NCBI RefSeq assembly: GCF_900198835.1
Contig: NZ_LT900021.1
Location: 1,054,001-1,118,000 of the forward strand
Source of the DNA: Thermococcus henrietii
GTDB lineage: Archaea > Methanobacteriota_B > Thermococci > Thermococcales > Thermococcaceae
Reading direction: 5' to 3'
DNA length: 64,000 nt
Shown piece by piece: positions 186 through 21,531 of the stretch. Within the stretch, counting starts at the first letter, position 1. The number at the start of each line of letters is the position of its first letter. Below the pieces are notes generated by a model. The model saw only the letters and a program-made list of their open reading frames with translations, did not search any database and had not been told where the DNA came from. Both the position numbers and the translations under genes were made by a program.

Positions 186-1823
186 TCACTCGCCGTCTGC
201 AACTTTTTTCCACTTCTCTTTCGTCCTCTTCCAGCAACCCGGCGGCATGAGTTCCCGCTCCGGGCAGTAACCGAGCTGAATGCAGCGCGGCCCGAGCTTC
301 GCCCACCTTATAATCGGTCTGAGCTCGTCGTTTCTGGCAATCTCCTCCAGCATCTTCCAGGCCACTTCGCGAATCTCCCATTGGGCCCTCTCGCAGAGCC
401 TGAGACCGAAGAAGTGCTTCAGCTCGCGCAGGTTCATCGTTACCACTATCTTCGTCCGCACCGCCTGGGGGAGAATGAAGCGCGCGTCCTCCTTTGGAAC
501 TCCAGCCTGAACAGACTTAATGTAGAGCTCCCTGGCGTCCCGCATAAGGTCATACCACCGGTATGCCAAAAACGGGTTCTCCAAGACACTTTCAGGTATG
601 GTAAACTCGTACTCCGCAAGCCTCTTTCGTATGGCGTTCTGGATTCTCTCCTTGAGCTCGGGGACAACGGCAAGAGCCTTGAGTATGTTGGCCCTCCTTG
701 TTAGGAATGGGTCGGCGTCTCTGTAGAGAAGTCTTAGCAGATTTTCGGAACCCCTACCCTTGGTGTAGCGAAGGTACCCAATTCCCTGTTTTTCATAGTA
801 TTTTAATGCACCTTCAGGAAGCCCCAATTCGGACAGCATGAACATCGTATCCTCGAGGGCTTTTTTACTTGAGCTAACAAACGTTACCTCTGTTCTTTGA
901 AAAGTGCCGTCTCTGAAGACCACTTTGATGTAGCCATCTCCGTCTAGGTAGCCCCTGAGAAAATGAGGCCAGAGGTTTTTGGATACCCCTTTAATCACCC
1001 TCTCAAAACTTAGGGTTTTATCCTTTCTTTCAGAAACCCCCCACTTCTTAAGGTCTTTGATTAGCTTTTTGTTTCCAACCCATATCCGGACCGTGTTCCT
1101 GCCCTTCTGAGCTTTTACTTTTATCCCTCGCCCAATACGCTCTGCTATCTCTATTAAGAGGGTTTTTTCGAGGTTTTTCTGGTCTATTATAAGGGCGTTC
1201 CTTGACTCATTGATGCTACCATCAGCCATTATAAAACCGAGGATGTAAGCCTTGTCCGGCTCGTTAATGTTCTCGAAGAAATCCTCATTCACAATCCTTC
1301 CATTGTAAGCTTCTCCCGCTTTTCGGGGAGTGACACCATACGCCCTGAGTATCGAGAGAACCGAAGTGGGATGGAGTCCTGTTATCTTCGCTATTTGCCA
1401 CGACGAGAGACCATCTTCAATGTACCATTTAACGATCTCCTCTTCTTGGTTTATACTGAGCTTACAGTGCGGGTTTCTCTTCTCTCCAGATGGCTCGGGC
1501 AGTTTGTACTCCTTTAGGTTCGCGGAAGAAACGAACTGATACCTCTGGCTCTGCTGGGTGTAGCTTGCTATTCTGTGACGAACAAGTTGATGCGAACAAA
1601 CACGAGAACAGCCCTCAATTGAGAACGTCAGAACAGCGTGCTCGAGTATGGACTCGTGGCCGTAGCCGAGAACCCTCGGGAGGTGCATCTCGACGTCCGT
1701 TTTGGTGATTCGCTCAAAAGCCTCGCTCTCCCATTCGTCCCAGTAGCTTATGAGCGCCGACCATGTGACGGTTTCAAGGGGCTTTTTCGTATAATTGACG
1801 AGCCTGACCCTGATTCCATTCAT
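186..1823 (-). CDS. thyX: Flavin-dependent thymidylate synthase ThyX, with in-frame HTH-LAGLIDADG insert
   Basis: ThyX makes dTMP from dUMP using FAD, NADPH and methylenetetrahydrofolate. The signature RHRIASYTQQSQR sits at residues 82-94 and the conserved C-terminal half (ARFILPQAVRTK, LRELKHFF, GLRLCERAQWEIR) runs from about 447 to the end. The product is 545 residues, roughly 300 longer than a normal ThyX. The excess is an insert after the signature: a helix-turn-helix (about 122-165), then two LAGLIDADG motifs, YILGFIMADG (193-202) and FLRGYLDGDG (288-297). Intein motifs are absent: no Cys/Ser block A and no terminal His-Asn before Cys/Ser/Thr. Deleting one copy of a 7-bp direct repeat plus the DNA between the copies (897 bp) leaves a normal 246-residue ThyX. 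I chose ATG 1823, which has GGTG nine bases upstream; an in-frame TTG at 1838 has no such support. Whether the full-length chain is active as it stands is unknown. Confidence 0.88.
   Translation of the reverse strand: MNGIRVRLVNYTKKPLETVTWSALISYWDEWESEAFERITKTDVEMHLPRVLGYGHESILEHAVLTFSIEGCSRVCSHQLVRHRIASYTQQSQRYQFVSSANLKEYKLPEPSGEKRNPHCKLSINQEEEIVKWYIEDGLSSWQIAKITGLHPTSVLSILRAYGVTPRKAGEAYNGRIVNEDFFENINEPDKAYILGFIMADGSINESRNALIIDQKNLEKTLLIEIAERIGRGIKVKAQKGRNTVRIWVGNKKLIKDLKKWGVSERKDKTLSFERVIKGVSKNLWPHFLRGYLDGDGYIKVVFRDGTFQRTEVTFVSSSKKALEDTMFMLSELGLPEGALKYYEKQGIGYLRYTKGRGSENLLRLLYRDADPFLTRRANILKALAVVPELKERIQNAIRKRLAEYEFTIPESVLENPFLAYRWYDLMRDARELYIKSVQAGVPKEDARFILPQAVRTKIVVTMNLRELKHFFGLRLCERAQWEIREVAWKMLEEIARNDELRPIIRWAKLGPRCIQLGYCPERELMPPGCWKRTKEKWKKVADGE
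609..1512 (-). mobile_element. Homing-endonuclease-type insert in thyX, flanked by 7-bp direct repeats
   Basis: The thyX insert is bounded by GGAGTAC (coding strand) at 1512-1506 and again at 615-609. The copies start 897 bp apart, exactly 299 codons. The protein on both sides echoes itself: LKEYKLPEPS before the insert and LAEYEFTIPES after it. Joining at the repeat gives LKEYEFTIPES, a plausible native ThyX sequence. The cargo is a DNA-binding HTH plus a two-motif LAGLIDADG endonuclease. The repeats could be a target duplication, microhomology used at insertion, or splice sites. I looked for an archaeal bulge-helix-bulge at the junctions and found only fragments of pairing (AAACT with AGTTT just inside the two copies), so RNA splicing is unproven. 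Confidence 0.7.
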
Positions 1824-2041
1824 GCCGAGAATCACCAACGAGCAAAGGTGCCCGACCTTATTAGGTTTGCTTTGACGCGGGGGAGTTAAAGTGATGGTTT
1901 CTTTAGTGCTTCTTCATGCCCAGTTTTGGTCTACGTTTGGAAAGTGAGAGGCGAGGTGACTTCAAATAATTTCAGGAAAACCGATGTTTTTCCGACGAAA
2001 GGGTTATTAAATTCAGGGGCCAGCCTTAAACGGTGATGCAC

Positions 2042-3027: not shown

Positions 3028-3145
3028 TTGTGAAAGCCGTCTTTTATAAACCTTGCAATTTATGAAAGTGGTCTTTCACAAAAGGTGCAGTTTGTGAAAG
3101 TAGGGTTTCACAAACCTTATAAGTTATGAAAGCATACTTTCACAC
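3028..3145 (+). repeat. Four phased 22-bp inverted repeats (32-bp period), probable operator array with TATA box
   Basis: Four copies of a dyad TTRTGAAAG-N4-CTTTYAYAA begin at 3028, 3060, 3092 and 3124, a constant 32-bp step (about three helical turns). The third copy reads as nine-base perfect arms, TTTGTGAAA and TTTCACAAA. A TATA element, CTTATAAG at 3116-3123, fits between copies three and four. The fourth copy ends one base before the ATG of the following ATPase, so it would cover the transcription start. No ribosome binding site is visible, so the transcript is probably leaderless. Such a layout suits cooperative binding of a dimeric regulator, probably repressing. The regulator is not identified; autoregulation by the ATPase's own HTH is a guess. 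Confidence 0.85.
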
Positions 3146-4465
3146 ATGACAGTCAAGATTGTTAAACTCATTAGGCACAATCCCTGGTGGAAGGGGGAAG
3201 GCTGGGAGCGAGAAGACCCAAACCTCTCCCGTGTGGGAGAGATTATTCCCAGAAAGGAAATCGAGATACAAAATGGTTCGATAACACTTCTCCGGGGAAT
3301 CCGCCGGGCTGGAAAGAGTTTCTACGTCAAGACCCTCGTGAAGAAGCTAATCTCAGAAGGGATACCCGCTCAGAGAATAGTCTACATTCCCTGCGACAGG
3401 TTCACGCGAAGAGAAGTTAGAGGTTTTATCAACGAGCTGAGGTTCAGACACGGCAAGCTTTACGTCTTCCTCGACGAAATAACTTATCTAGAAGGCTGGC
3501 GCCTCCTCCTCAAGGAACTCGGTGAAGAAGGAGTCACTACAGTCGCGACCGGCTCAAATCCTGTGGAGATAAAGAGGGAGGCGGAACTTCTACCGGGGAG
3601 GGGCATAGAGGGGAACGAGTACTACTTCAACCCCCTCAACTTCAGGGAGTTTGCGCGCTTCATGAACCCCAGACTGCCCGATGTCTCATTCAGGTACAGT
3701 GAGCCTGATGTTGATAACATCTTTCCTTGGTACGAGGAACTTGAAGGGTTGTTTTACGCGTACCTCCTCACAGGGGGTTTTCCAGAGGCCGTCTTAGATT
3801 TCAAGGCAACGAAGGTCGTTGGAGAGGAGCGCTACGAGGAGATAATAAGGCTGGTCCTCGGTGAGATTGCCAAGTCCGGAAAGAGCGAGGAGACTGCGAG
3901 GGAACTGTTGGAGGCCGTTTTCAGGCTCAGGGGCAACCGCGTTGATTACGTGACCCTCGCGGAAGAAGTTGGCGTTTCCCATCCCACGGTCAGGGATTAC
4001 CTTGCGACCCTTGAGAGCGCGAGGGTGATTTACACCCTTGAGGCCTGGGACGTGAGCAGAAAGAGGTATGCCCATCGGAAGGAGAAAAAGATAGTCTTCC
4101 AGAGCCCCCTCATAGCGACGGCCCTTGCGGTGTATCTCGGAGACGACCCCGTTGAGTTCGTTGAGGGGAACATCGAGTGGCTCGTCGAGAACACCGTCGC
4201 CTCTCACGTCATCTGGCACCTTGAGGAACCCCTGTTGAGGGAAAAGCACTCCTTCGCGGGGTTCTACTACGACAGGACCAAGGAGTGCGACCTCGTGATA
4301 AAAGAACGCGGAAAGTTCTTTGGAATCGAGGTCAAGTACGGAAAAGTAAAGCGGAATACCTACCCATTCCCAGTGATTTACCTCTCGAAGGACGAGCTTG
4401 GAGATGACACCGTTCCGGTATCGCTCTACCTCTACGGCCTGAAGAAGAGCCGGAAGTCAATATGA
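3146..4465 (+). CDS. AAA-type ATPase with HTH and nuclease-like C-terminal domain (archaeal ATPase/DUF4143 class)
   Basis: A 439-residue P-loop ATPase. Walker A is GIRRAGKS at 51-58, Walker B LYVFLDEI at about 105-112, and a sensor-like strand ATGSNP near 135. A winged-helix segment (DYVTLAEEVGVSHPTVRDYL, about 272-291) follows. The C-terminus has a PD-(D/E)xK-like pattern: ECDLVIK, then FFGIEVKYGK at about 395-410. Families with this architecture are expanded in archaea and their cellular role is poorly defined. Links to mobile elements or stress have been suggested, but nothing here proves one. It is monocistronic, preceded directly by the 32-bp operator-like array, and followed 27 bp later by an RNA methyltransferase gene. 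A second, diverged member with its own array lies at 20293. Confidence 0.85.
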   Translation: MTVKIVKLIRHNPWWKGEGWEREDPNLSRVGEIIPRKEIEIQNGSITLLRGIRRAGKSFYVKTLVKKLISEGIPAQRIVYIPCDRFTRREVRGFINELRFRHGKLYVFLDEITYLEGWRLLLKELGEEGVTTVATGSNPVEIKREAELLPGRGIEGNEYYFNPLNFREFARFMNPRLPDVSFRYSEPDVDNIFPWYEELEGLFYAYLLTGGFPEAVLDFKATKVVGEERYEEIIRLVLGEIAKSGKSEETARELLEAVFRLRGNRVDYVTLAEEVGVSHPTVRDYLATLESARVIYTLEAWDVSRKRYAHRKEKKIVFQSPLIATALAVYLGDDPVEFVEGNIEWLVENTVASHVIWHLEEPLLREKHSFAGFYYDRTKECDLVIKERGKFFGIEVKYGKVKRNTYPFPVIYLSKDELGDDTVPVSLYLYGLKKSRKSI

Positions 4466-4492: not shown

Positions 4493-5422
4493 ATGCTCGA
4501 AAAGTTGTTTTCCCTTGGCTACTCCAAGACCTTCGCGGAGCGCTATTACGAACTCTGGGGAGAGCGGGCCTTAAGCATAGCCGAGGCGATGGAAAGGCCC
4601 CTGCCAAGGTGCTTCCGCGTAAACACGCTCAGGATAGAGGTTCCTAAGCTCACCAAGCTCCTCAACAAGAAGGGCTTCCAGTTTAAGAGGGTCCCCTGGA
4701 CGAGGGAAGGTTTCTGCCTGACGAGAGAACCCTTCTCAATTACCTCCACGCCCGAGTATCTGAGCGGTCTCCTCTACATCCAGGAGGCCAGCTCGATGTA
4801 CCCGCCGGTTGCCCTCGAACCAAAGCCCGGTGAAACCGTTGCGGACATGGCTTCCGCCCCGGGCGGAAAGACGAGCTATCTGGCCCAGCTAATGGAAAAC
4901 GAGGGCATTATCTACGCCTTCGACGTCGGCGAGGACAGATTAAAGGAGACCCGGCTCAATCTCTCGCGCCTTGGCGTTACGAACACCGTTCTCTTCCACC
5001 GCTCTTCGCTCTACATAGAAGAGCTTGGCGTTGAGTTCGATAAAATCCTCCTCGATGCCCCCTGCACCGGCTCCGGGACAATACACAAGAACCCCGAGCG
5101 GAAAGCTAACAGAACGATGGAGGACGTCAAATTCTGCCAGAACCTCCAGATGAAGATGCTTGAGAAGGCTTTGAGCGTCCTCAGAAGGGGCGGAATCCTG
5201 GTTTACTCCACCTGCTCGCTCGAGCCGGAGGAGAACGAGTTCGTAATCCAGTGGGTTCTCGATAACTTCGACGTTGAACTGCTTCCCCTCCGCTACGGTG
5301 AGCCGGCCTTAACGAGGCCCTTCGGAATCGAGCTGAGCGAGGAAATAAAGAAGGCGAGGCGCTTCTATCCCGACAGACACGGGACGAGCGGTTTCTTCGT
5401 CGCGAAGCTCAGGAAGCTTTAG
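4493..5422 (+). CDS. tRNA/rRNA cytosine-C5 methyltransferase (NOL1/NOP2/Sun family)
   Basis: This SAM-dependent enzyme methylates C5 of cytosine in RNA. The 309-residue protein contains motif I (DMASAPGGKTSYLAQL, near 120), motif IV LLDAPCTGSGT (about 185-195) and motif VI YSTCSLEPEEN (near 238). The Cys of TCS is the catalytic nucleophile and the Cys of APC is the release cysteine. By similarity to the characterised Pyrococcus enzyme of this size it probably acts on tRNA around position 48/49, but substrate choice cannot be read from sequence. The ATG at 4493 lacks a strong Shine-Dalgarno; an AT-rich ATTTTAAA lies 20-30 bp upstream, suggesting a leaderless transcript. It converges with the next gene and overlaps it by four bases. 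Confidence 0.92.
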   Translation: MLEKLFSLGYSKTFAERYYELWGERALSIAEAMERPLPRCFRVNTLRIEVPKLTKLLNKKGFQFKRVPWTREGFCLTREPFSITSTPEYLSGLLYIQEASSMYPPVALEPKPGETVADMASAPGGKTSYLAQLMENEGIIYAFDVGEDRLKETRLNLSRLGVTNTVLFHRSSLYIEELGVEFDKILLDAPCTGSGTIHKNPERKANRTMEDVKFCQNLQMKMLEKALSVLRRGGILVYSTCSLEPEENEFVIQWVLDNFDVELLPLRYGEPALTRPFGIELSEEIKKARRFYPDRHGTSGFFVAKLRKL

Positions 5423-20207: not shown

Positions 20208-20282
20208 GATTGGCAGGATTCGTGAAAAGTTGCTAAACGTGATTGGCAAAATCTTTAAAAATTTGCTAACTAAAATTAGCAA
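20197..20282 (+). repeat. Three phased 20-bp inverted repeats (33-bp period), probable operator array with TATA box
   Basis: Copies of TTGCTAA-N6-TTAGCAA begin at 20197 (degenerate: TTGCCCG/TTGGCAG), 20230 (TTGCTAA/TTGGCAA) and 20263 (perfect TTGCTAA/TTAGCAA), exactly 33 bp apart. A TATA-like TTTAAAAA at 20254-20261 lies between copies two and three. Copy three ends directly before the AAGGTG ribosome binding site. The first copy overlaps the end of endoQ, including its stop codon. The position relative to TATA and start is the same as in the array at 3028, although the motif sequence is different. Confidence 0.82.
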
Positions 20283-20292
20283 GGTGTGAGTG

Positions 20293-21531
20293 ATGGAAAG
20301 CGTTAGGGAGGTCGTCGAGGACTACCTTGAACTCGATGTTGGGGGTGTTGAGAGGGAGCTTGATGTCCCCCTGCCGAGGGTTCCGAGGGCAGTTGCCATA
20401 ACCGGCCCGAGAAGAGCGGGCAAGAGCTTTTACATGCTCCAGCGCTTCAAAGGTCTCCTCGGAAAGGTTCCTTCCCTCTACCTGCCCCTCGATGACGATA
20501 GAATTTACCCCCCAACGCTCAAGACTCTCAACGGGTTCCTTGAGGTTTTCCATGAAATCTACGGTGAGAAAAAGGGTGTTCTATTCCTCGATGAGGTTCA
20601 AGAAGTGGAGAGCTGGGAGCTCTTCGTCAAAAGGGCCGTCTCTCTGGGCCACACGGTTTTTGTTTCCGGCTCGTCATCGAAGCTCCTCAGCAGGGAAATT
20701 GCGACCCAGTTGCGGGGGCGGGGAGTTTCGTTTGAGCTCTACCCCTTCTCCTTTAGAGAGTTCCTCCGGGCCAAGTCCTTCACACCGGGGGAATCCCTCC
20801 CAAAGAAGGCGAGGGTTAAGGCCCTCCTTGAGGAGTACCTCCTATGGGGCGGCTTCCCAGAGGTCGTCCTTGAAGACTCTGAGCTTTTGAAAAGGAGGAC
20901 CCTCGAAGGCTACGTTGATTTGATACTCTACCGCGACGTTGTTGAGCGCTTCGGGGTAAAGAACACGAGGGCGCTTAAGCTCCTTCTGAAGCTCATCGGC
21001 TCGTCCTTCGGCAGGGAGTTCTCGGTGAGCAAGACGGTCAGGTACATGAAGGGTATGGGAGTCGAGACCAACAGGAACACGCTGTCCGCTTACCTTGAAC
21101 ACCTGGAGGACGCGTACCTTGTCCTAAAGGTCAGAAAGCTCGCACCTCCGAGGGAGAGCGAGAAGGCTCCCCCGAAGGTCTACCTCGTTGATTCTGGATT
21201 GGCGAGGGTGTTCAAGGACAAGGTCGAGTTCGGAAGGCTGATGGAGTCCGCCGTTTTAGTTGAGCTTTTCAGGCAGGGAATCAGGCCGTACTACCTCAAG
21301 ACCCACAAGTTTGAAGTCGATTTTGTAATCCGGGAAGGGGATTATTACAGGCTGATTCAGGTAACGCGTTCCACCGAGGGAACGCTCGAAAGAGAAATTA
21401 AAGCCCTCGAGGAGGCTTCAAAGGTGCTACCCGTTCACGAAAAGGTCCTCATAACATGGGACGAGGAGGGGAAAGTCGGAGACGTTGAACTTATACCCCT
21501 GTGGCGGTGGCTCCTGGGGGTGAAACGGTGA
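20293..21531 (+). CDS. AAA-type ATPase with DUF4143 C-terminal domain
   Basis: A 412-residue P-loop ATPase. Walker A is GPRRAGKS at 38-45, Walker B VLFLDEVQE at about 97-105, then a sensor strand FVSGSSSKLL. The middle carries the family hallmark LLWGGFPEVVLE (about 190-201). A winged helix (VSKTVRYMKGMGVETNRNTLSAYLEHLEDAYLV) is followed by a C-terminal nuclease-like fold with VDFVIREGDYYRLIQVT. Function within the archaeal ATPase/DUF4143 group is not established. ATG 20293 has AAGGTG six bases upstream. The gene lies behind the 33-bp dyad array and overlaps thiL by four bases, so thiL expression may follow this operator. Confidence 0.87.
   Translation: MESVREVVEDYLELDVGGVERELDVPLPRVPRAVAITGPRRAGKSFYMLQRFKGLLGKVPSLYLPLDDDRIYPPTLKTLNGFLEVFHEIYGEKKGVLFLDEVQEVESWELFVKRAVSLGHTVFVSGSSSKLLSREIATQLRGRGVSFELYPFSFREFLRAKSFTPGESLPKKARVKALLEEYLLWGGFPEVVLEDSELLKRRTLEGYVDLILYRDVVERFGVKNTRALKLLLKLIGSSFGREFSVSKTVRYMKGMGVETNRNTLSAYLEHLEDAYLVLKVRKLAPPRESEKAPPKVYLVDSGLARVFKDKVEFGRLMESAVLVELFRQGIRPYYLKTHKFEVDFVIREGDYYRLIQVTRSTEGTLEREIKALEEASKVLPVHEKVLITWDEEGKVGDVELIPLWRWLLGVKR

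Follow-up and report, generated by a model that had tools for sequence, protein, structure and literature searches.

A 32-bp-spaced dyad array at the promoter of an archaeal AAA+ ATPase gene is probably its autoregulatory operator

Autoregulated archaeal regulators, such as those of the Lrp family, bind dyads over the TATA box and start of their own genes and thereby repress them. The archaeal ATPases of the STAND type (signal transduction ATPases with numerous domains; SSO1545, PDB 2fna, and the PF01637-DUF234 proteins) have a plan of ATPase, winged helix-turn-helix (HTH) and nuclease-like domain that is similar to that of the protein studied here. PDC-S01, a candidate single-gene defence of COG1373-like AAA_14-DUF4143 ATPases, is described as an ATPase fused to a PD-(D/E)XK member and was the fourth most common defence across prokaryotes in a 2026 survey, in which most candidates of this sort were still awaiting experimental validation (PMC12988326). 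We found no tested mechanism for PDC-S01, reportedly among the commonest candidate defence families of prokaryotes, and in the open-access literature no description of operators or regulation for DUF4143, COG1373 or PDC-S01 proteins, which does not prove novelty. Here we analyse a 64,000-nucleotide stretch of the Thermococcus henrietii genome (contig NZ_LT900021.1, positions 1,054,001 to 1,118,000; hereafter the window) in which four inverted repeats lead into the start codon of a gene for an ATPase of this kind. We conclude that this array is probably the autoregulatory operator of the ATPase gene, with the ATPase binding the dyads through its own HTH and repressing itself.

The array consists of four 22-bp dyads with a start-to-start step of exactly 32 bp (positions 3028-3145), built on the pattern TTRTGAAAG-N4-CTTTYAYAA. 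Two copies are perfect and two have one mismatch each, in the right arm of copy 3 (GTTTCACAA) and of copy 4 (CTTTCACAC). These specific sites overlap the core promoter of the ATPase gene itself, since dyads flank the TATA box and the ATG at 3146 directly follows the end of copy 4 at 3145. The centre of the TATA box is 26-27 bp from the A of the ATG, and this distance suggests that the mRNA is leaderless. When the window was scanned with up to three mismatches allowed, we obtained eight matches, which are the four sites read on both strands, vs 0.10 expected in shuffles (shuffle maximum 2). An earlier note on this DNA had described four dyads at exact 32-bp steps, with the TATA box between copies 3 and 4 and the last copy ending at the ATG, and both the sequence and the shuffle scan confirm that description. 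With at most two mismatches, the whole 2.16-Mb genome holds no further match to the pattern, and matches with three mismatches are at background level across it. A lone partial site, TGAAAGACAGGTTTCA, is present elsewhere in the genome (position 1957791; L005 1501-1516) just 5′ of a TATA-like sequence and a gene.

Among 94 Thermococcaceae genomes searched, we found 15 full-length orthologues with 74-100% identity, the window's own included. All 15 have dyads at -22 and -54 and most have them at -86 and -118 too, in the 32-bp register and with the TATA box in the same linker. The earlier note had staked its operator array on conservation of the dyads and their spacing upstream of orthologues, and both are kept throughout this set. 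Dyad 3 (-54) was found in every orthologue with enough upstream sequence (the contig ends within the upstream regions of L020 and L039), and some orthologues have degraded outermost copies. The downstream gene is rsmF in many of these loci, other neighbours occur at L014, L015, L018 and L019, and at L016 the OTC gene lies upstream of the ATPase with no rsmF within the available flank; the register is also kept in several orthologues away from the OTC-rsmF locus. In a homologue from Candidatus Thermoplasmatota with 47% identity (L040), the -22/-54/-86 register is the same while the arm TTGTGAAAG has become TTGTGATAG-like, a TGATAG-like element replacing TGAAAG in a parallel change of the arms. 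In genome G009, fragments of an rsmF gene follow the ATPase (L011 2850-3103), which suggests that an array-ATPase-rsmF block was transferred and that its rsmF then decayed.

The ATPase scores above the cut-offs for AAA_14 (75.6 bits, cut-off 27) and DUF4143 (68.7 bits, cut-off 28.1) and matches the PADLOC profile PDC-S01 with an E value of 4e-34. A winged HTH near residues 220-310 is indicated by weak matches to LrpA1/Csa3/CasR. The AlphaFold2 model (mean predicted local distance difference test score 88, predicted TM-score 0.90) contains an AAA+ module, a confident winged HTH (248-302) and a C-terminal beta-rich domain that carries E380-x-D382...E395-x-K397 on its strands, with E380 and D382 invariant across 55 aligned family members. 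The best PDB match of this model by Foldseek is Cdc6/Orc1 on origin DNA (2qby_A; E 2e-7, TM-score 0.34-0.39), and the nearest PDB relative by sequence is 2fna (E 1.5e-10). Viral contigs were also searched for relatives of the ATPase, and none were found.

The same architecture recurs with different sequences across the family. Upstream regions of 58 paralogues (~30-36% identity) mostly contain clade-specific dyads flanking a TATA box. We scored such pairs over two dyads with four 7-nt half-sites (maximum 42, threshold at least 33) in 123 distinct Thermococcaceae family members, and the mean was 34.3 vs 25.2 in dinucleotide shuffles. The threshold was reached by 84/123 members vs 0/51 other window genes (Fisher 2e-19, a value in which independence is overstated because the members are interrelated); the only two of the 53 window genes to reach it both belong to the ATPase family, and the other 51 score no higher than 31. 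A count by clade still finds 27 scoring representatives below 70% identity, and when steps of 20-60 bp were allowed, all 74 members scoring at least 34 used 32-35 bp. There are ~20 different half-site words in the Thermococcaceae family, and they differ between clades (for example TTTGTGAAA, TTGGTAAT, TTGATATT, TTGAGAA, TTTGCA, TTTACCA, TTGGTACG and ATGTTTCC). Within the T. henrietii genome, 8 of the 11 family members examined score, each with its own word, and neither of the two clades tested has sites in this genome away from its own promoter. Relatives in the class repeat the architecture (ACTCATTnnnAATGAGT twice, step 33), as do some members of a Thermoplasmatota genome. Sites and protein co-diversify, with clade-specific words held in a fixed geometry, and because they do so, the data support an extension of autoregulation to the family, in which each ATPase would bind its own promoter. 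Autoregulation, which the earlier note had offered as an idea, is thus the best explanation we have, given the confident winged HTH and the paralogue clades with their own dyads in the same geometry.

The 32-bp step of the focal array corresponds to 3.05 turns at 10.5 bp/turn, or to ~2.99 turns at 85 °C if a textbook thermal unwinding coefficient is used. Most paralogues have a step of 34-35 bp, or 3.2-3.3 turns, and therefore the family has not conserved strict rotational phasing. What it has conserved is the placement of the TATA box between two dyads at a step of 32-35 bp, and long same-face arrays characterise the focal clade. The placement of all sites on one helix face that had been proposed earlier accordingly fits the 32-bp clade and does not carry over to most paralogues.

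A second AAA_14-DUF4143 ATPase gene in the window (20290-21531, +) has its own dyad pair, TTGCTAA...TTRGCAA, with a 33-bp step around a TATA-like box at 20230-20282. Family members on bacterial and methanogen plasmids (L333, L334, L335 and L338) have palindromes 5′ of their start codons, seen without a control comparison.

Features of the dyad array, the ATPase and the neighbouring gene (positions in the window)
Feature	Position	Strand	Description
Dyad 1	3028..3049	none	-118 from ATG; TTGTGAAAG-CCGT-CTTTTATAA; register common to most orthologues
Dyad 2	3060..3081	none	-86 from ATG; TTATGAAAG-TGGT-CTTTCACAA
Dyad 3	3092..3113	none	-54; TTGTGAAAG-TAGG-GTTTCACAA; upstream core dyad, on the B recognition element (BRE) side of the TATA box
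TATA box	3116..3123	+	CTTATAAG; linker between dyads 3 and 4; kept in all orthologues
Dyad 4	3124..3145	none	-22; TTATGAAAG-CATA-CTTTCACAC; abuts ATG, just 5′ of the expected transcription start
AAA+ ATPase gene	3146..4465	+	439 aa; AAA_14 PF13173 and DUF4143 PF13635; PADLOC PDC-S01
AAA+ domain	3278..3652	+	aa 45-169; Walker A GIRRAGKS, Walker B LDE
Winged HTH	3887..4051	+	aa 248-302; helices 248-261 and 268-275, recognition helix 279-291, wing 295-302; presumed dyad reader
PD-(D/E)XK-like motif	4256..4336	+	E380-x-D382 ... E395-x-K397
rsmF/NSUN-type methyltransferase gene	4493..5422	+	downstream of ATPase; orphan dyads usually just 5′ of rsmF in ATPase-less genomes

We propose that the ATPase, which combines an AAA+ module, a winged HTH and a PD-(D/E)XK-like C-terminus, would use its own HTH to bind the 22-bp dyads as a dimer. 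One core dyad lies on the BRE side of the TATA box and the other separates that box from the ATG, so their joint occupancy would block access of TBP/TFB and polymerase, and the gene would be repressed. The extra upstream dyads, whose number varies among orthologues, would raise the local concentration of the protein and may stabilise the core complex through contacts at about three helical turns; it is the geometry of the sites that points to both repression and cooperativity. Induction would then follow on release or reshaping of the complex, brought about either by a foreign ligand or by the AAA+ module through its nucleotide state. With one operator word per clade, the many paralogues in one cell would be mutually insulated.

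Several observations weigh against this proposal. The pattern with at most one mismatch is present in 40/94 genomes, which exceeds the number with the ATPase gene, and ~24 Thermococcus genomes without the ATPase keep 1-4 dyads by rsmF with conserved arms. The statement in the earlier note that the array is dedicated to one ATPase gene thus stands for the T. henrietii genome and fails across the genus, and in the ATPase-less genomes a factor other than the resident ATPase may read the orphan dyads or the losses may be recent. A dyad pair was not detectable in 39/123 family members, including a group within L107-L125, so the pair is common in the family and not universal. The link between HTH and operator is also weak. 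In partial Mantel tests of protein-segment against operator similarity (several segments and identity cuts tried, p values uncorrected), the HTH gave a partial r of 0.15 (p 0.036) with the AAA and C-terminal parts held fixed among 27 representatives, and with finer segments at an 80% identity cut (45 representatives) only HTH segments were significant (p = 0.016 and 0.005). The correlation was not significant at the 60 or 70% cuts, and a test of the recognition helix by itself was significant at one identity cut of three. The HTH-specific correlation lends weak support to an HTH that reads the operator.

The orphan dyads also bear on whether a separate host regulator reads the array, controlling the ATPase promoter in genomes with the gene and the rsmF promoter in those without it. 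In the ATPase-less genomes that we read, the dyads occupy the OTC-rsmF interval, where they usually stop ~10 nt short of the rsmF TATA box, and the ATPase, its TATA box and the -22 dyad are all missing. Conservation of the arms is as high there as in genomes with the ATPase, and the centres and linkers diverge (nucleotide diversity ~0.11 in the arms of the two better-kept dyads, ~0.45 in their centres and 0.43 in linkers; G042 vs G044, 5/54 vs 19/32, Fisher 9e-7), which is what a separate regulator would predict. However, these genomes were picked by good pattern matches, which biases the sample towards intact arms, and a different dedicated regulator would be required for each of the ~20 operator words, plus a related one in another phylum. 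The second clade, with the word TTGGTAC, also leaves its operator behind: seven genomes without the gene keep the dyad pair at the syntenic site beside a convergent gene, most of them with a TATA-like box, and the second dyad is degraded in G017. We consider a separate regulator unlikely.

Gene-less alleles therefore keep recognition sites both at the rsmF locus and at the empty site of the TTGGTAC clade, and the simplest account is that the genes are rapidly gained and lost and leave their operators behind. Other genomes have one partial dyad or none at the rsmF locus (G060, G023), and ATPase-plus, array-only and neither states are interspersed on the rsmF tree. In the sister pair G071 vs G036, the difference runs exactly from the end of dyad 3 to the stop codon, and in G051 vs G018 it runs from dyad 3 to just before the rsmF promoter. 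Such sharp boundaries, the interspersed states, the dyads kept at empty sites in two unrelated clades and the E-x-D...E-x-K motif would all suit a selfish, homing-like cassette, in which the DNA-binding and nuclease-like parts of the ATPase recognise the persisting dyads and promote re-entry of the gene. Insertion does not disrupt the recognition site, however, and with the array intact beside the gene the occupied allele would be unprotected from self-cleavage. Moreover, the dyads flank the TATA box as operators do, the sequence left at the empty site differs between the two clades, and cleavage by the nuclease-like part is hypothetical. We hold homing to be improbable, and think no better of the idea that the gene is a self-propagating cassette, with operator dyads that also serve as its chromosomal landing site for re-entry and an ATPase that represses itself once established.

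An activating upstream element, as opposed to a repressor operator, would fit the variable number of upstream dyads and the orphan dyads that stop ~10 nt 5′ of the rsmF TATA box, a typical position for archaeal activators. The ATPase TATA box is nevertheless bracketed by the two most conserved dyads, of which the downstream one extends to the expected start, and this is the geometry of repression; activation is thus very unlikely. Regular spacing and palindromes might recall CRISPR-like repeats, replication iterons or transposon ends, and we rejected these non-regulatory readings as scarcely credible because the linkers are just 10 bp and diverge while the arms are kept, and because the dyads are always around the TATA box of ATPase family genes.

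The OTC-rsmF interval is an insertion hot spot, where PF01637-DUF234 ATPase genes separate OTC from the orphan dyads in three genomes and DUF4932 genes separate the dyads from rsmF in two others (L274, L278, L282, L268 and L270). A dyad pair was found in 0/3 of these PF01637-DUF234 genes, and we dropped the idea that they form a wider class with the same operators. Elsewhere in the window (189-1838, -) is a gene for a ThyX-type thymidylate synthase (Thy1) with a LAGLIDADG (intein-like) insert.

If each member has an operator at its own promoter, the family would be one of self-limiting ATPases that bind DNA sequence-specifically, and biochemical and structural work would have an immediate ligand in the operator word. 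With a dozen insulated paralogues per genome and ~20 words in one archaeal family, it would amount to a natural specificity library for orthogonal archaeal repressors, and orphan operators make gain and loss of the ATPase gene directly traceable.

By profile, the focal ATPase is a member of PDC-S01, whose antiviral role is a candidate one, and the self-specific dyad array around the TATA box is new information relative to PDC-S01 as published. With dyads over the TATA box and start of its own gene, the locus resembles those of Lrp-family autoregulators, but the protein is an AAA+ ATPase with a nuclease-like domain, and its operators are register-locked pairs or arrays with one word per paralogue. 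Like the Orc1/Cdc6 initiators, which are its closest solved fold by Foldseek, it combines AAA+ with a winged HTH and goes with site-containing DNA; unlike them, it has a different C-terminal domain and sites at a promoter instead of an origin, and the TM-score is low. The STAND-type SSO1545 is its nearest relative of known structure by sequence, whereas the three PF01637-DUF234 genes at the same locus differ from the focal family in having no dyad pair.
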